Origin: Desulfuromonas sp. SDB
Lineage (GTDB): Bacteria; SDB-A
DNA: 14,292 nucleotides
Assembly (NCBI GenBank): GCA_001412365.1
Contig: LKUE01000383.1
Coordinates: forward strand, 1 to 14,292
Direction: 5' to 3'
A program made the position numbers and the translations under genes. Shown here one piece after another: positions 4,972 through 14,292 of this stretch. Within the stretch, counting starts at the first letter, position 1; each line of letters opens with the position of its first letter. The notes beneath the pieces are model-generated. The model was given only the letters and a program-made list of their open reading frames with translations, did not search any database and had not been told where the DNA came from.

Positions 4972-5077
4972 AATTGGGGACGGTGCATGACTCTATGGCA
5001 TTTATGGGTATTATATGAGTATAATTATTCTATTTATATATTAGAAAATGTCACAAAGTCATGCACCGTCCCCAATT
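4972..5077. mobile_element. Palindromic MITE-like element with perfect 21-bp terminal inverted repeats
   Basis: The left arm is 4972-4992, beginning AATTGGGGACGGTGCATG. The right arm, 5057-5077, is its exact reverse complement. A 64-nt AT-rich centre without coding capacity separates them. GGGGACGG-type palindromes are familiar to me next to IS200/IS605-like Y1 (REP-associated) transposases, so a non-autonomous element mobilised in trans is likely; no transposase is in this window. The element starts 6 bp after the M1 peptidase stop. Its other end lies inside the 3' coding region of the convergent Asp-box gene, for which it supplies the last residues and the stop. I see no target-site duplication. 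The right arm runs into T5 (5076-5080), so the transcript could form a long-looped hairpin that ends transcription of the peptidase gene. Confidence 0.7.
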
Positions 5078-6715
5078 TTTGTAATTTCCCGGAGGATTGG
5101 CTGTTCTCCAGTAATAATAGTGGGTGCCTGCAGATAAGTAACGGTCAACCAGGCAGTGAACTTCCCTGCCGGTTACATCGTAGATTTTCAAAGTAGTATG
5201 ACCATCCTGAGGGAGAGTGAGGTTAAATTGAACCTGATTGCCGGATGATTTCGTCTGAACTATGTAAGCTAGAGGTATTTCTGGATCGGGCTGTTCCTGA
5301 ATTCCTAACAAATCCCAGAAATCAAATCTCTGATGGTAGAGATGATAGTGACCTTGATCAATAAACGAAGGATATTCTTTAATAAATGTTACATCAATAT
5401 GACTTTGATCTGGAAAAATGGCATGGATAAAATTATGCTTAGTGCATGAAGGAAAATAATAACTGAAATTAGAAGATATTGGGTTAATAATGCTAGCATC
5501 CCAGGTATTGCCAAAATCAGTGGAGTAAACTGCAGTCAGGGCATATTCCAGGCTGCCTGCAGTATCTACAACTGATAGGGTAATTCCGTAAATCCCGTAC
5601 AAGTCCCAAATATAATAATCGTCTCCCCAGTACAATAATCCTAATGTAGGATATCCGGAGATATGTTCAAATACGGAAGGATTCCCAGTGATGATGGGAA
5701 CCGGGTTGCAGGAATCAAAACTCCAGTTACCCGGATTTCCACTGTTGGGTTTAATGAAGTATATCTCTCCCAGGTCATAGCTATTAAGACTATTTCGGCA
5801 ACTGTCTAGCTTTATCAATATGTAGGGTATCTTTGAGTAATAATCAACCATTATACTATAACCGGTTGAATTCATGGATAGAGTGTCGGGAGGATTTCCC
5901 GCTGTACCAATCATTAAATGGCGGGGAGAGGTCCAAGTCAACCCGTAATCTGTGGATTCCATATAGTAGGGGAGAATGGGGCTAGTAGCACTTTCCTGCC
6001 TTCCGAAGTACATAAAGACATATCCGTCATTTCCCCGGTCGCAAACCGGGGCTTTTTGACAATGAGCTTATCCCAGGGGAACAATCAAAGAACTGTCCCA
6101 GCTAGTCCCACCATCGGAGGAAGTAAATCCCCAAATATCTTCAAGGGTAGGTTGAAAACCAGCCGCAAAACGATGACCATCATTCCAAGCCACTCCAGTC
6201 ATATTTGATATAGAAATATTTCCCATGATCACTGGAGTGAATAGTTGCCAAGGAGTTAATTCGTCGTAGGTATAGTAAGTACAGCCGTTTTCAGTCCAAT
6301 AACAGTAACATCTGGCTTCATAGCTTGTATAAATGGTATCCATAGCAACAACCTGGGTTTGGTCATATTTTATATAGGAGAAATTCCCAGTGCCTACCTG
6401 GGTGGGAGTCCAATTATCTCCTCCATCTGTTGAATAAGTCTGATAGAATATCTGGTAAGCGTTGGGATCGGCAGTAGTTTGGGTAAAAATGACAGATACA
6501 GTGTCGGTGTAGCTGATGACTCTTCTTCCCGGAGCAGCTAAACCTCTCCAGTTGGCGTCAGAGGTGATCAGGTGGGTGTCGGAAGAGGTAAATAAAGATG
6601 TAGAATAGTTCTGTAAAGGGGTGACTAAATCGGGGGGGGTGATGATTATTTGATCAGCAGCCATGCTGTGACTTAAAACAAGAACCAGATTTACAATGAC
6701 CATAAATATTTTCAT
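5051..6715 (-). pseudogene. Secreted Asp-box (sialidase/BNR-like beta-propeller) protein, disrupted by an in-frame stop and a 3' insertion
   Basis: The ATG at 6715 has a strong Shine-Dalgarno (AGGAGGGG, 5 nt away) and starts a signal peptide (residues 1-19, ending SMA). The frame runs to a TAA at 6068-6070 (215 residues) and continues in the same frame through 18 sense codons to ATG at 6013 and on to TGA at 5051-5053. Four Asp-box motifs (S-x-D-x-G-x-x-W) lie across both halves: STDGGDNW and SSDGGTSW before the stop, STDYGLTW and STDFGNTW after it. The halves are thus one beta-propeller gene split by a single nonsense codon. The C-terminus begins a FlgD/T9SS-type module (LKIYDVTGREVHCL, SAGTHYYYWRT), but after PPGNY it reads KNWGRCMTL, encoded by the palindromic element. 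The last strands, roughly 15-20 residues, are missing. No catalytic sialidase residues could be assigned; Asp-box proteins are often non-enzymatic. It is the third gene of a minus-strand cluster, 48 bp after the small membrane protein gene. Confidence 0.8.
6033..6057 (+). terminator. Intrinsic-terminator-like hairpin, antisense within the Asp-box pseudogene
   Basis: CCCCGGT (6033-6039) and ACCGGGG (6045-6051) form a perfect 7-bp GC-rich stem with loop CGCAA. C and T5 (6053-6057) follow on the plus strand. It is among the most terminator-like structures in the window, yet it lies inside a minus-strand gene and 10 nt from that gene's premature stop codon. The bases also encode plausible propeller sequence (KAPVCDRGNDGYVF), so it may be coding DNA that folds by chance. 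It could stop plus-strand readthrough from the peptidase gene or an antisense transcript. Confidence 0.35.
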
Positions 6716-7948: not shown

Positions 7949-9958
7949 ATGATGAATAATTCAGATATTTTTCAGTCAATGCAAATTAAATTAAATGATC
8001 AATTACCTCCTGATCCTCAGTTCGAGACGGGTATAAGAAGAGCACCTAAAAGAGCACTTAACTTGACCAAATATCAAGTTAAGATAGCTCTGACCAATGC
8101 TCTAAGATATATTCCGGAAAAACTTCATCAAAAATTAGCTCCGGAATTTTTAGAGGAGCTGCATACCAGGGGAAGAATTTACGGATACCGTTACCGTCCT
8201 CAGGGTGAAATCAAGGGAAAACCGGTAGACCAGTACAAAGGAATTCTGGAAGCCAGAGCCCTTCAGGTCAATATTGACAACAATTTAGATTTTGAAGTCG
8301 CTTTATATCCTTATGAATTAGTAACTTATGGAGAAACCGGACAGGTTTGTCAAAACTGGATGCAGTACCGGTTAATCAAGAAATACCTGGAGATCATCCG
8401 GGAAGATCAAACCTTAGTGGTTAGTTCCGGTCATCCGGTTGGTTTGTTTGCTTCCCACCCCAATGCTCCCCGGGTTATATCTACTAACGGTTTGATAGTG
8501 GGGCAGTGGGATAATCCTGATCATTTCAACAAATTAGCGGCAATGGGAGTTTCCAACTACGGTCAAATGACTGCAGGAGGGTGGATGTATATCGGACCCC
8601 AGGGAATTGTGCACGGGACCTATCTCACCATTTTAAATGCTGCCCGGAAATATTTAGGAGTAGGTGAAGACAAAGACCTCAAGGGAATTTTATTTGTCTC
8701 CTCCGGTTTAGGAGGGATGAGCGGAGCACAGGCAAAAGCAGTGGAGATTGCCGGAGGTATTGGAGTCATTGCGGAAGTGGACTTCAGTCGAATAAAAACC
8801 AGGTTAAATCAGGGATGGGTTGGCAAAGCTTCCGATAATTTAGATCAAATAGCAGATTGGATAAAACAGTACAGGTCATCGGGAAAAACTGAGTCCATCG
8901 CCTATCATGGAAATATTGTGGATCTGCTGGAATACCTCGATCAAAAAAATCTTAAACCGGAGTTACTTTCCGATCAGACTTCCTGCCATGCAGTGTATGA
9001 AGGGGGGTATACACCGGCAGGAGTGAGTTTTGATGAAGGCAGGGAAATATTGAGAAATGATCCATCGAAATTTAGACAGCTGGTGGACAATTCATTGAAA
9101 AGACATTTTCAAGCGCTGGTGCATTTAACTGAGAAAGGCAGCCATTTCTGGGATTACGGTAACAGCTTCATGGCTTCAGTATTTGAAGCAGGTGAATCTG
9201 AAATCGCTAAAAATAAGCAGGACACTTCCCAAGGATTTATCTGGCCTTCTTATGTTGAAGATATCATGGGACCAATTTGTTTTGACCGGGGTTTTGGTCC
9301 GTTCAGATGGGTATGTTTGAGCGGAAAGCAGGAAGACCTTCACTCCACTGATCAATTAGCGATGAATTGTATAGATCCGGCTATCAGCTCTCTGCACCGG
9401 GATAATTATCACTGGATTAAAACTGCAGAGCAAAATAAGCTGGTGGTGGGGACTAAAGCCCGGATTCTGTATTCAGATGAACAGGGTAGAATGAATATCG
9501 CCTTGAAATTCAATGAAGCGGTCAGACAAGGTGAAATCGGACCGGTGCTGATTGGCAGGGATCATCATGATACTTCAGGTACAGATTCACCTTTCCGGGA
9601 AACCGCTAATATTTACGATGGAAGTATGACTACTGCAGATATGTCCGTGCAGTGTTTCGCGGGAAATGCTGCCAGGGGAATGACCTTGGTGGTTTTGTCC
9701 AATGGAGGAGGAGTGGGGATAGGCAGAGCCAGCAATGGCGGATTTGGACTGGTATTAGACGGCAGTGAAAGAGTTGATCAAATAATTAAGTTATCTCTGT
9801 CCTGGGATGTGATGGGAGGAGTAGCCAGGAGAAGCTGGAGTGGTTGTGCCCCCGCGGTAGAAACTGCAGTTAAGTGGAATAAACAAAATCCGGATAAGGG
9901 GCATATAACCCTTCCTTTCCAGGTAAATACCGAATTAATTAACCAGTTAATTGATTAA
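7949..9958 (+). CDS. hutU: Urocanate hydratase (urocanase), long form
   Basis: Converts urocanate to 4-imidazolone-5-propanoate, the second step of histidine degradation, using tightly bound NAD+ as an electrophile; cytosolic. Length is 669 residues, compared with about 557 in the common bacterial form, matching the longer type seen in animals and FCB bacteria. Diagnostic segments are NALRYIPEKLHQKLAPEF (50-67), QNWMQY (135-140), SSGHPVGLF (159-167), MTAGGWMYIGPQGIVHGTY (207-225), GLGGMSGAQ (253-261), CFDRGFGPFRWVCLSG (444-459) and SNGGGVGIG (584-592). In the short form the active-site Cys sits just before RGxGPFRW; here that place is Asp446, and the nearest Cys are 444 and 456. ATG codons lie at 7949 and 7952; the Shine-Dalgarno GGAGG (7943-7947) is only 1 nt from the first, so the second is likelier. 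No hutH, hutI or hutG is nearby. The antiporter gene follows after 36 bp. Confidence 0.93.
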   Translation: MMNNSDIFQSMQIKLNDQLPPDPQFETGIRRAPKRALNLTKYQVKIALTNALRYIPEKLHQKLAPEFLEELHTRGRIYGYRYRPQGEIKGKPVDQYKGILEARALQVNIDNNLDFEVALYPYELVTYGETGQVCQNWMQYRLIKKYLEIIREDQTLVVSSGHPVGLFASHPNAPRVISTNGLIVGQWDNPDHFNKLAAMGVSNYGQMTAGGWMYIGPQGIVHGTYLTILNAARKYLGVGEDKDLKGILFVSSGLGGMSGAQAKAVEIAGGIGVIAEVDFSRIKTRLNQGWVGKASDNLDQIADWIKQYRSSGKTESIAYHGNIVDLLEYLDQKNLKPELLSDQTSCHAVYEGGYTPAGVSFDEGREILRNDPSKFRQLVDNSLKRHFQALVHLTEKGSHFWDYGNSFMASVFEAGESEIAKNKQDTSQGFIWPSYVEDIMGPICFDRGFGPFRWVCLSGKQEDLHSTDQLAMNCIDPAISSLHRDNYHWIKTAEQNKLVVGTKARILYSDEQGRMNIALKFNEAVRQGEIGPVLIGRDHHDTSGTDSPFRETANIYDGSMTTADMSVQCFAGNAARGMTLVVLSNGGGVGIGRASNGGFGLVLDGSERVDQIIKLSLSWDVMGGVARRSWSGCAPAVETAVKWNKQNPDKGHITLPFQVNTELINQLID

Positions 9959-9994: not shown

Positions 9995-11182
9995 ATGGCT
10001 GAAGAAAATATACTTATATTTATTGCTCTGATAATCATTTTAGCTAAAATTCTAGCTGATCTTTTTATTAGAGTGGGTCTTCCTCCAGTGCTGGCGATGA
10101 TCCTTATTGGAATATTATTTGGTCCCACCGGATTTAATTTAATCAGAACTCCCCATGATCATCTTATAATTCATTTTTTGGCTAAAGTGGGAGTGATCTT
10201 ATTGTTGTTCATGGCTGGTTTGGATACGGATCTCTCCCGGATGAAAAAAATGGGAGGCAATACCTTTATGATTGCCTTGGGTGGGGTAATACTGCCATTT
10301 ATCGCTGGTTTCGGCATAAGTTATCTATTTTTTAAATCAGTTAATGTTGCCCTGGTTTTTGGATTAATCTTGACAGCCACTTCAGTGTCAGTATCGGTGA
10401 TGGCATTAATGGATTTAAAAAAATTAGATTCAGTAGAAGGGAACACTATTCTAGGAGCTGCTATTATTGATGATATCATCGGGATTGTTATGTTGACCTT
10501 TTTGTTCAGCATATTGGGATTAAAGCAGCAGTCATTGGTTTTATCTTTAGGTAAGATTGTTGGGTTTCTGGTTATATCTTTTGCAGTGGGAATTTTTTTA
10601 ATTCCTCAGATATTAAAATATGCCCGGTTGCTGAAAGTGGAAAAAGCAGTGGTTACCATTGTATTGGGAGTGATGTTTGCTTTTGCCTGGGCTGCTGAGT
10701 ATGCTGAAATAGCAGCTATTACCGGTGCTTACTTAACTGGAATGTTTGTGGGAAGAACAAAACTGAAAAAAAGAATTGAAGGAGAAGTGCTGACTTTAGG
10801 TCATTCATTATTTATTGCCCTGTTTTTTGTTTCTATTGGATTGGAAACTAATTTAAGGCTATCCAGCAAAGATATAATTTTTGCGGGGGCAATTACCATA
10901 GTGGCGGTACTGGGCAAATTATTTGGATCAGGACTGATTGCCTGGTGGAGAGGTTTCAGCTGGAATCGCTCCATGGTTATTGGTTCGGGGATGATTCCCC
11001 GGGGAGAGGTTGCTTTAATTATTGCCACCATTGCTGCATCACCTAAACACGGGGGATTGATAAATCTGGATTACCTGTCTGCGGTGGTGTTCATGGTTAT
11101 CATATCTGCTTTTGTTACTCCTTTTTTGTTGAAGTATTTTTTTAAATTACCCCCTCAAAATCGGTTAAAGGAGGAAAGATGA
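9995..11182 (+). CDS. CPA2-type cation/proton antiporter (Kef/NapA-like)
   Basis: Inner-membrane exchanger of Na+ or K+ for H+, 395 residues with about 12 helices. Family marks: GLPPVLAMILIGILFGPTG (28-46), FMAGLDTDL (72-80), the helix-5 Asp pair in GAAIIDDIIGIV (D159-D160; in two-proton exchangers these carry ions), TGAYLTGMFVGR (243-254), FFVSIGLETN (277-286), and MIPRGEVALI (333-342) with R336 and E338. The Asp-Asp pair suggests electrogenic Na+/H+ exchange rather than KefC-type K+ efflux. There is no C-terminal RCK/TrkA domain. Instead the next gene, an EIIA-like protein, overlaps the stop by 4 bp, so regulation may be supplied in trans. The start has only a loose Shine-Dalgarno (TGGGGAA, 11 nt before ATG), so translation may depend on hutU, which ends 36 bp upstream. 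Family assignment strong, ion not determined. Confidence 0.9.
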   Translation: MAEENILIFIALIIILAKILADLFIRVGLPPVLAMILIGILFGPTGFNLIRTPHDHLIIHFLAKVGVILLLFMAGLDTDLSRMKKMGGNTFMIALGGVILPFIAGFGISYLFFKSVNVALVFGLILTATSVSVSVMALMDLKKLDSVEGNTILGAAIIDDIIGIVMLTFLFSILGLKQQSLVLSLGKIVGFLVISFAVGIFLIPQILKYARLLKVEKAVVTIVLGVMFAFAWAAEYAEIAAITGAYLTGMFVGRTKLKKRIEGEVLTLGHSLFIALFFVSIGLETNLRLSSKDIIFAGAITIVAVLGKLFGSGLIAWWRGFSWNRSMVIGSGMIPRGEVALIIATIAASPKHGGLINLDYLSAVVFMVIISAFVTPFLLKYFFKLPPQNRLKEER

Positions 11183-11997
11183 TTTCAAGATATTTCCATC
11201 CTGAGCATTTGATGTTCAATATGAATTTTGAACATAAACAGCATCTATTTGAATATCTGTGTAAAAAAGCAGAACAGGATGGGTTTATAACCTCCTGGGA
11301 AAAAATGTACAAGGCAGTGGCAGAACGTGAACAACAGGGTATTACCGAGTTAAAATCATCAGTGGTATTACCCCATGCCCGGGGTGATTTTATCACCAGG
11401 TTGTTTACTTATTTTGTAGTAAATCCCCAGGGGATTTCATATCAGGGAATCAAAGGAGATAAGGCAAAACTGGTAATCTTTATCGGCATTCCCCCCCAGG
11501 ATAAGGATTATTTGAAGTTGCTGGCGGCAATTTCAAGAATATTGTCCAAGCCGGGATTTTTCGATCAACTGCTCCGGGCAGAAGTCATTGAGGATGCAGT
11601 TTACACTTTCAAGAAATACTATCTCCAGGTGGGGGAACAGGCAAAAGGTGAAACTGGATACGCAGTGGTTTTAAATATCAACGGAATTGTGGATGTAGAT
11701 GAAATTCTCCCCCTGATGACTGAAGTGGGGATTAATAATGTAGTGGTTATGGAGGGGGAACAACCGGATTCTCCGTTTAAAATGCTGAAGTTTTTTTCAT
11801 CTTTCAGTTTCCGGAGGAGCGGAATAGGGGAATCCAGATTGTTCATGGGGCTGACTTCGGACAGTGATGCTTCCGGAAAACTTTTCACCTTATTAAAAAA
11901 TGAAGGCACTGATTTATCCCGCCCGGGAAAGGGATATGTCTTTTCCTTTGCTCTTAATCAGTGTTTTGGGGGGGTGGAAGAAGAACCTGAGTTCTGA
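11179..11997 (+). CDS. PTS EIIA (PtsN/fructose-type) domain protein with C-terminal PII-like region
   Basis: A 272-residue protein. Residues about 1-150 form a PTS EIIA type-2 domain: AVAEREQQGITELKSSVVLPHARGD (46-70), with H66 at the phosphorylated His of the family, then KAKLVIFIGIPPQDKDYLKLLAAISRIL. Residues about 158-272 (YAVVLNINGIVDVDEILPLM, NNVVVMEGEQ, FMGLTSD, LSRPGKGYVFSFAL) look like a small alternating beta/alpha ferredoxin-like fold, perhaps related to nitrogen regulatory PII, without a T-loop I can recognise. The ATG at 11179 overlaps the antiporter stop (ATGA) behind an AGGAAAG Shine-Dalgarno (GGAGGAAAG), so the two proteins are translationally coupled and probably act together. 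No EI, HPr, EIIB or EIIC gene is present, which favours a regulatory rather than sugar-transport role. Regulation of the antiporter by phosphorylation of H66 is inference. Confidence 0.75.
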   Translation: MISRYFHPEHLMFNMNFEHKQHLFEYLCKKAEQDGFITSWEKMYKAVAEREQQGITELKSSVVLPHARGDFITRLFTYFVVNPQGISYQGIKGDKAKLVIFIGIPPQDKDYLKLLAAISRILSKPGFFDQLLRAEVIEDAVYTFKKYYLQVGEQAKGETGYAVVLNINGIVDVDEILPLMTEVGINNVVVMEGEQPDSPFKMLKFFSSFSFRRSGIGESRLFMGLTSDSDASGKLFTLLKNEGTDLSRPGKGYVFSFALNQCFGGVEEEPEF

Positions 11998-12138: not shown

Positions 12139-14292
12139 TTAGGGGGGAGAGGATATCTCTTTAAGGTATCTTAACCGGATTATAAAAATTCGATTGTATT
12201 TTTGTGTAAGATCATCTTGCAGTTCTAAAGCTAAACTGCCATCTGGTTCCTGAATGCCTGAAATAGTGGAAAAGATGAATACACTATCCGGGGTTTTTAA
12301 TTCAACATTGTAATCAACTAATTGATAGGATTCATTTTCAATAAATGTTTCCACATCAGAAATTACATTGTTTTGGAAATTACGCTGATTAAGTGAGGAC
12401 CTCCCGATAAAAAACAGTATTATTCCTATGGACAATAAGGTCAGCAAGGAACTTATGATGGTGGTAGTGGTCTTACGATAATGCTCTCGATGTTGTGGAT
12501 GGAGACCTAGAAACAGCAATATCACTCCTGCCGCAAAACTTATTCCGATGAGGTTGGCGGTGAACAGCAGTAATGCGCCAATTGCATGATTCCCCTGGGA
12601 CTGGGCTAAGGATATGCCGATAACACAAGCAGGGGGCATCAATGCAGCAGCGATAGCTACTCCGGGAAGGGCAGCTCTGACACTTCCATGGGCAAGGGCG
12701 TAAGCCCCCGCCATTCCTGAAGCCATTGCGATCAATAAATCCAGGAGGGAGGGTTTAGTCCTGGATAGTATCTCTACTCCCATTGATTCAGGTGGGAAAA
12801 GCCAGGTCATTAAATATGAAAGTATGATTGCCAGAATTAATCCTTTTAAAGTCGCCTCGATTGCTTTGAATAATATGGTTTTATTCCCGGTGGCAATGCC
12901 TAAAGAAGTGGCAATGAGCGGGGTCATCAGGGGAGCAACCAACATTGCCCCTATTATGACCGCAGGGCTGTTTAACAGTAAACCGAGGGTGGCAATTATC
13001 GAGGATAGAAACACCATGATGTAATAATCAATACTGGGCCGGGCGCCCACTGCCAGCCGGCGATAGAAATCATATTTCTCCGTACCCTCCACGCTGGGCA
13101 GGAGTTTATCCAGTCCGATAACTATTCTTCGAAGGAAATATTTTACAAAACCAGGAAATGGTCTTGAAATAAAAATGGGGTTGTTCAAGGACTGGGCAAG
13201 TTGGATGGAAATGCTTCCCAGGGAAAGTCTTTCAAAAACTCCTTCGGGGGGATTGCCCATGACGATTAAAGTTTTTGAATCTACGTTTTCCATAATCCGT
13301 TGGATAATAATTTTTGAGCTGATGGAATGGGGCTTGTTACCAGTGTATACTTTAATGGTTTTAATGTTCCCGGCGGTGTAGGATTTGATTGCTTCAGCTA
13401 TACTTATCCAGGGTGGCGGTTTTTCTTGTTCCCAGGGGAGCAGAACCGTCTTAATTTGGGAAATATTTTCTTCTCCGGATTTTGCCACTAAAATATCACA
13501 GGTGGCATCTTCCAGCAGTTTTTGCAGAATTGTACTGAGTTTTCCATTCTGTTCAGACCATCCCAGTATAACTAGATTAATACGTTCATCAACAATTGTA
13601 TTTAATATTCCCTCCACAATGGAAGATGCCCTTCGGGAAATATTCAAGTAAGGAATCTCCGGGGTGGAAAATTGAGTTTGGATTATTGAATTTATGTTTT
13701 CAGTGCTAACTTTATAATCCTGGGGGGGATAGGGTGCGTTGACTTTCAGAAAGATAATTTCAGCCTGTTTGTGCCGGGCGATGACTTTGGCAATTTCAAT
13801 TAGATACTCAGCGGTGGAAGGATTAGCCAGGGGCACCAAAATCTTATATTCCCGGGGCAGGGGAATATCCTGGATATTTTCGACATCTTTTTGATAAAAA
13901 GATTTTAAGAAAGTCCTCTTGGAGAAAATCTCATAAAACATCCAGGGAACTAATATAAAGGGCAGAAATAATATTGATAATTTAGCAGTGATAATTACCG
14001 CTGCCGGAATTACGGTGCATAACAGAGGGAAGATGGGATACAGGGGAAGAATGAAAGATTTTGACCGGGAAGGACGGCGGAACATCAAACTGCAAATGCC
14101 GGTAATCATCAGTTTGAGCATAAAAGAACAGATTAATAAATTAACTATGAGCATGGTTACATCAATAAATTGGAGAATTACAAACAACCCTATTGCACAG
14201 AAGATAATTAACCAGTGTGAATATTTAGAAATTGAAGTGGGTATAAATTTTTCCACTCCCATTGTATCTAAAGACAACCGGGAATTTTTTAT
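12139..14292 (-). CDS. APC-type amino-acid permease / tandem USP / DUF389 fusion protein (5' partial)
   Basis: The frame is open to the window edge; TTG at 14277 and ATG at 14262 are possible starts, but upstream codons (IKNSR) continue a recognisable domain, so the gene very probably begins outside. Numbering from the TTG: residues 1-118 look like the end of an APC-family amino-acid permease (the SR..MGVEKFIP segment, then helices at 21-39, 42-65, 79-98 and 100-117, with RRPSRSKSFILPLYPIFPLL like the permease motif RPFRVPLYP). Residues about 144-268 form a universal-stress-like domain (YKILVPLANPSTAEYLIEIA, INLVILGWS). About 274-372 form a second, divergent one (IKTVLLPWE, LIVMGNPPEG). About 408-592 match the DUF389 membrane domain (GARPSIDYYIMVFLSSIIAT, SPAVIIGAMLVAPLMTPL, ALMPPACVIGISLA). 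A last helix (610-624) precedes a soluble alpha/beta tail. It ends with TAA, convergent with the EIIA gene. Transport of amino acids is inferred; the DUF389 role is unknown. Confidence 0.78.
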   Translation of the reverse strand: MKNSRLSLDTMGVEKFIPTSISKYSHWLIIFCAIGLFVILQFIDVTMLIVNLLICSFMLKLMITGICSLMFRRPSRSKSFILPLYPIFPLLCTVIPAAVIITAKLSILFLPFILVPWMFYEIFSKRTFLKSFYQKDVENIQDIPLPREYKILVPLANPSTAEYLIEIAKVIARHKQAEIIFLKVNAPYPPQDYKVSTENINSIIQTQFSTPEIPYLNISRRASSIVEGILNTIVDERINLVILGWSEQNGKLSTILQKLLEDATCDILVAKSGEENISQIKTVLLPWEQEKPPPWISIAEAIKSYTAGNIKTIKVYTGNKPHSISSKIIIQRIMENVDSKTLIVMGNPPEGVFERLSLGSISIQLAQSLNNPIFISRPFPGFVKYFLRRIVIGLDKLLPSVEGTEKYDFYRRLAVGARPSIDYYIMVFLSSIIATLGLLLNSPAVIIGAMLVAPLMTPLIATSLGIATGNKTILFKAIEATLKGLILAIILSYLMTWLFPPESMGVEILSRTKPSLLDLLIAMASGMAGAYALAHGSVRAALPGVAIAAALMPPACVIGISLAQSQGNHAIGALLLFTANLIGISFAAGVILLFLGLHPQHREHYRKTTTTIISSLLTLLSIGIILFFIGRSSLNQRNFQNNVISDVETFIENESYQLVDYNVELKTPDSVFIFSTISGIQEPDGSLALELQDDLTQKYNRIFIIRLRYLKEISSPP

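Follow-up and report, generated by a model that had tools for sequence, protein, structure and literature searches.

A single gene of Desulfuromonas sp. SDB joins an APC-permease-like module, two universal stress protein (USP) domains and a DUF389 domain in one protein. This architecture is confirmed by Pfam, by BLASTP, by a hidden Markov model (HMM) and by the recurrence of the same domain order in other genomes, and it bears out the initial annotation, which had read a permease, tandem USPs and DUF389 as one polypeptide. The fusion belongs to a widespread type of transport protein that is apparently undescribed in the literature searched, in which no account of a permease-USP-DUF389 fusion was found. 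The window, meaning the whole stretch of 14,292 nucleotides that was analyzed, spans the entire contig LKUE01000383.1, such that position 14292 is the terminus of the contig and not merely of the window. The gene is a frame of 717 codons on the minus strand (12139-14292), with its stop at 12139 and open through the contig end at 14292. The features of the encoded protein are collected in Table 1.

Table 1. Features of the fusion protein encoded at one end of contig LKUE01000383.1 (aa, residues of the open frame)
Feature	Positions	Strand	Basis
APC-fold permease, C-terminal part, about TM9-TM12, aa 1-130	13903..14292	(-)	BLASTP to L028, APC HMM, hydrophobic stretches aa 20-72 and 77-125
USP domain 1, aa 146-272, ATP-loop region shortened	13477..13857	(-)	Pfam Usp and alignment
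USP domain 2, aa 279-376	13165..13458	(-)	BLASTP alignments and family alignment; below Pfam detection
DUF389 membrane module, aa 401-653: amphipathic helix, six TM helices (3+3 repeat), long seventh helix	12334..13092	(-)	Pfam and AlphaFold2
DUF389 internal repeat, first half, aa 443-478, 'PAVIIGAMLVAPLMTP...'	12859..12966	(-)	hhalign of halves
DUF389 internal repeat, second half, aa 543-574, 'PGVAIAAALMPP...'	12571..12666	(-)	hhalign of halves
C-terminal beta-beta-alpha-beta domain, aa 657-711	12160..12324	(-)	AlphaFold2 secondary structure; predicted on the membrane side opposite the USPs

Pfam recognizes Usp at residues 150-271 (38.2 bits, gathering cut-off 24; E 2.6e-9) and DUF389 (PF04087) at residues 450-585 (128.7 bits, gathering cut-off 23.9; E 2e-37). 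It finds no domain within the first 149 residues and no AA_permease match in the 717 residues, in which only the last four permease helices are present. The permease part and the second USP are below Pfam detection in this protein, and therefore another test was needed. BLASTP against a complete 809-residue 'amino acid permease' from the haloarchaeon Haladaptatus (L028, WP_227777280.1), a protein with AA_permease_2 and two Usp stretches of its own, gives a single alignment over residues 14-391 of the window protein (E 3e-22), running from the loop before TM9 through both USPs. A second APC-USP-USP protein from another genome (L005) aligns over residues 57-391 (E 6e-8). An APC-domain HMM built without the window protein scores its residues 1-145 at 23.1 bits, versus 5.6 bits for the best of 200 shuffled sequences. 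By homology, then, the available helices belong to the APC superfamily (AA_permease_2, PF13520), and from these sequence comparisons both the permease helices and the second USP are real. The first USP is placed in the universal stress protein family (PF00582) by Pfam and the second by alignment only; the tandem arrangement proposed earlier is upheld on that footing. The Haladaptatus type of permease ends after the second USP, whereas the window protein continues into DUF389. The window protein is best filed as a variant of the APC-USP transporters to which DUF389 has been added.

DUF389 is present in bacteria and archaea. Relatives were sought in 84,980 GTDB genomes with patterns drawn from the window protein and one USP-DUF389 protein, including the DUF389 motif IGAMLVAP, and the best 80 of 505 relatives were kept. 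These 80 loci come mostly from Chloroflexota, and also from Planctomycetota, Acidobacteriota, Myxococcota and Bacillota, the phyla having been checked for some of them. Among the 80 there are about 25 complete or nearly complete proteins of about 1,050-1,200 residues with the order APC-USP-USP-DUF389, about 45 with USPs and DUF389 without APC, and five with DUF389 alone, counts that are not prevalences given the selection of the best 80 and the use of a DUF389 motif as query. The full fusions are found in Chloroflexota, Planctomycetota and Acidobacteriota. In L029 (AA_permease_2 E 2.8e-25), L032, L043, L047 and L106, the APC part is above the Pfam cut-off together with DUF389, and Usp is as well, except in L106. 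In one fused gene (L049:3560-7370), the APC part is spread over two overlapping frames, possibly by a frameshift in that metagenome contig. The same domain order in about 25 other genomes, the database survey for which had been suggested at the outset, shows that the fusion is not a product of chance or of a chimeric assembly.

In 386 genomes searched for DUF389, a sample with less bias, the window protein is the sole full fusion, and only one other USP-DUF389 protein (L014) was recognized among the longer frames examined. The fusion is recurrent in the motif scan but single in this sample, suggesting that it is common within certain groups but rare when all are considered. The initial annotation had described DUF389 as usually standing alone or with small partners. 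The combination is no rarity, however: the fusion turns up in many Chloroflexota, and DUF389 very often comes after a USP pair in proteins that have no permease. The USP-USP-DUF389 proteins and stand-alone DUF389 proteins (TIGR00341/TIGR00271) share the DUF389 core of the window protein at about 33-53% identity, and many from Chloroflexota share the tandem USPs too, but, unlike the window protein, they have no permease module. No separate adjacent permease gene was seen in the available flanks of the USP-USP-DUF389 loci, and that arrangement was rejected. Nor do the fused genes have a conserved partner next to them, since neighboring genes recur only in small sets of at most three or four loci.

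A quick tree built from the DUF389 region has a branch (SH-aLRT 96) that sets every APC-bearing protein, including the window protein, apart along with 17 proteins that lack APC; the window protein itself forms a long lone branch. The presence or absence of APC requires at least four changes on this tree, a count that does not tell gain from loss. A scan of viral contigs returned no relatives. A protein of Mimivirus AB-566-O17 annotated as DUF389 (A0A1X9VNW0) matches a model of window positions 12142-13140 (-), with E 5e-7.

DUF389 is the most conserved part of the fusion, and the permease is its most variable membrane part. In the fused family 41 of 234 DUF389 columns are invariant, a figure inflated by about eight columns owing to the IGAMLVAP search motif, as compared to six of 410 for APC and two of 269 for the USPs. 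The invariant DUF389 residues include G448-P454, P553-P554 and N580 in the numbering of the open frame. No function for DUF389 is given in PMC3702460, PMC12419801, PMC6563660 or PMC10672838.

An AlphaFold2 model of residues 385-717, which cover DUF389 and the tail, has a pLDDT of 93.4 and a pTM of 0.88. In the numbering of the model, an amphipathic helix is followed by helices at 37-55, 60-84 (broken), 87-114 (long), 132-150, 157-179 and 183-210, then by a 52-residue helix at 218-269 and a beta-beta-alpha-beta domain. With the USPs predicted to be cytosolic, these seven helices would place the C-terminal domain on the opposite, outer side of the membrane. Helices 1-3 and 4-6 carry matching motifs (GAMLVAPLMTP and GVAIAAALMPP), and hhalign scores one half against the other at 22.1, as compared to a mean of 11.5 for column-shuffled profiles, none of which scores as high in 100 trials; the hhalign probability is just 17%.

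When the modeled membrane part is compared to known structures with VIA-align, FNT channels (HSC 3tdx, PfFNT, FocA and LciA) and aquaporins rank first. The HSC structure superposes over 195 residues at 3.7 A with a Z of 12.0, a value reachable by chance among helical bundles; the matches listed, at Z of about 10-12, are all FNT channels or aquaporins, although unrelated helical folds can reach the same Z. The model shares a six-helix 3+3 arrangement with HSC, FocA, LciA and the aquaporins, but DUF389 goes beyond these with its seventh helix and its outer domain, and sequence profiles do not support the relationship (hhalign probability below 1% against each of FNT, PF01226, and MIP, PF00230). 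The FNT and aquaporin likeness of the model is suggestive only. A search of the PDB by phmmer with the single window protein returned nothing. A CDF-type zinc transporter, the subject of the top Foldseek matches to DUF389 (E 1e-3), was rejected, given an rmsd above 10 A, a different number of helices and a profile probability of 1.9%. A more specific proposal, that DUF389 is an FNT/aquaporin-like channel and that the family couples an APC transporter to this channel through a shared cytosolic USP nucleotide sensor in one polypeptide, is tentative and must be considered rather doubtful.

The permease half can be followed in the full-length relatives. A model of the whole L029 protein has a pLDDT of 79.6 and a pTM of 0.50, and over the first 445 residues it matches ApcT (Z 42.5, 396 residues, 2.5 A) and CAT1. 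In Foldseek, the best matches of the APC and USP parts together are the cation-chloride cotransporters (CCC) of SLC12, NKCC1 and KCC (E 1e-18), and KimA of the KUP type (E 2e-13). Searched against the PDB, a profile of the fusion family picks up CAT/ApcT permeases, KimA, SLC12 and tandem USP proteins, with SLC12 (E 3e-13) weaker than the CAT permeases (E 1.5e-45). Like CCC and KimA, the fusion is predicted to have an APC fold and a cytosolic domain of nucleotide-binding type, whereas CCC and KimA lack DUF389 and identity is low, at 10-15%. In its predicted model, L029 resembles the SLC12 layout of an APC domain with a two-lobed USP-like C-terminal domain, so that membership in SLC12 may be considered for the fusion on layout.

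ATP or ADP is bound in the USP-like pocket of CCC cytosolic domains (PMC8280820), and c-di-AMP on the cytosolic domain of KimA inhibits potassium ion uptake (PMC10284832). The KimA domain is described as PPAT-like in the same work, so the analogy of KimA to the USPs is a loose one. By analogy with CCC and KimA, the USP pair of the fusion is a likely sensor, and the genome of Desulfuromonas sp. SDB encodes a DAC cyclase. In the window protein, alignment places the nucleotide loop of the first USP at five residues shorter, with the final G(S/T) absent. The second USP falls about 25 residues short of its length in relatives and keeps the 'GS' of the loop while the middle G is missing. Neither has the loop of the ATP-binding type (G-2x-G-9x-G(S/T)), suggesting that nucleotide binding may be lost in this particular protein.

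With moderate confidence, the window protein can be regarded as a nucleotide-regulated transport protein of the APC-USP kind, similar to CCC and KimA, with DUF389 as a second membrane unit. The APC-fold module would have 12 helices, with the last four on the contig and TM1-TM8 past its end. The cytosolic USP pair, by analogy, would sense an adenine nucleotide or c-di-AMP and would regulate the membrane units attached on either side. DUF389 would be a pore or carrier that forms the conserved core and is retained by every member, and the permease would be a dispensable accessory, either an ion or solute transporter or a regulatory module. The architecture, its recurrence, the pattern of conservation and the predicted fold come directly from the analysis, and from them we infer transport by DUF389, sensing of a nucleotide and coupling of the two membrane units. 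The pattern of conservation, high in DUF389 and low in APC with its TM1 motif gone, points to DUF389 as the functional core and to the permease as an altered ion or solute transporter or an accessory.

How far the permease has been altered bears on an alternative that is possible, if on the unlikely side, in which the permease half has degenerated into a sensing or assembly module that does not transport, and the protein is only a USP-regulated DUF389 channel. The small-small-G motif that amino-acid APC transporters have at the unwound segment of TM1, [SG][AST]G, is found in none of 25 fused proteins but in all four stand-alone APC controls, and the Haladaptatus permease keeps it as GAG. The low conservation of APC and the many relatives without it point the same way. 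On the other hand, the modeled APC fold is well kept overall, and three of the 25 fused proteins retain G-x-G at TM1. Loss of the amino-acid motif is, moreover, compatible with ion transport, as CCC transporters illustrate. The initial annotation had suggested that DUF389 may act together with amino-acid or ion transport. Joint action with transport is plausible; amino-acid transport is doubtful given the absence of the TM1 motif from the fused relatives, and ion transport, as in CCC and KimA, or an accessory role is possible.

It is improbable that the protein is an ordinary APC-USP permease for amino acids or ions in which DUF389 serves as a passive membrane anchor or oligomerization domain. 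The front half of the window protein does align best with an annotated haloarchaeal amino acid permease, and transport by DUF389 is a prediction, but no other part is as conserved as DUF389, which is also found without any permease, either next to USPs or by itself, and its many invariant columns are more than an anchor would need.

The N-terminal half of the permease was not found in the organism's own assembly and must be taken from relatives. Neither the last 54 nor the last 19 bases of the contig occur a second time anywhere in the assembly, and searches of it with AA_permease_2 and with a profile of the fused N-terminal half find only five other permeases, none of which is a fitting contig-end fragment. 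Three further genomes from the organism's family have no DUF389. In 23 full-length homologues, 287-316 residues (median 294) precede the position of the first residue of the window protein, and in L029 the upstream residues are predicted to fold as an APC transporter, as judged by the ApcT match. About 300 upstream permease residues had been predicted, with a start just outside the window and no permease upstream as the opposing case; the prediction holds in the relatives, which speak against that case, while the N-terminus and start of the window protein itself were not recovered from the assembly. A variant truncated to four permease helices that starts near the contig end is improbable: TTG and ATG codons lie close to the open end and no N-terminal permease half is found at any contig end, but the frame is open to the very end, homology extends to the first residues, full-length homologues are longer by the residues counted above, and the missing piece may be unassembled, given an assembly of 433 contigs.

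Elsewhere on the contig, a gene for a CPA2-type Na+/H+ antiporter overlaps by four bases a gene for a protein that has a PTS EIIA-2 domain and additional C-terminal sequence (9995-11997, +), and this pair is convergent with the fusion gene. A urocanate hydratase (7949-9958, +) has an N-terminal extension, its Pfam N-terminal domain starting only at residue 90. Two adjoining frames at 5051-6715 (-), the second with weak traces of BNR/Asp-box and FlgD_ig, may be one frameshifted gene. In the same genome, three APC permeases end in a PTS EIIA-2 domain (L007:237-2120 (-), L008:1338-3206 (+) and L009:838-2682 (-)), which is another fusion of a permease with a regulatory domain.

In short, the repeated fusion of DUF389 to a nucleotide-type sensor and an APC transporter, together with the channel-like model, provides a concrete hypothesis for DUF389, that of a channel or transporter that may be gated by USPs. 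The APC-USP layout of CCC and KimA would also be extended to proteins that have a second membrane unit.
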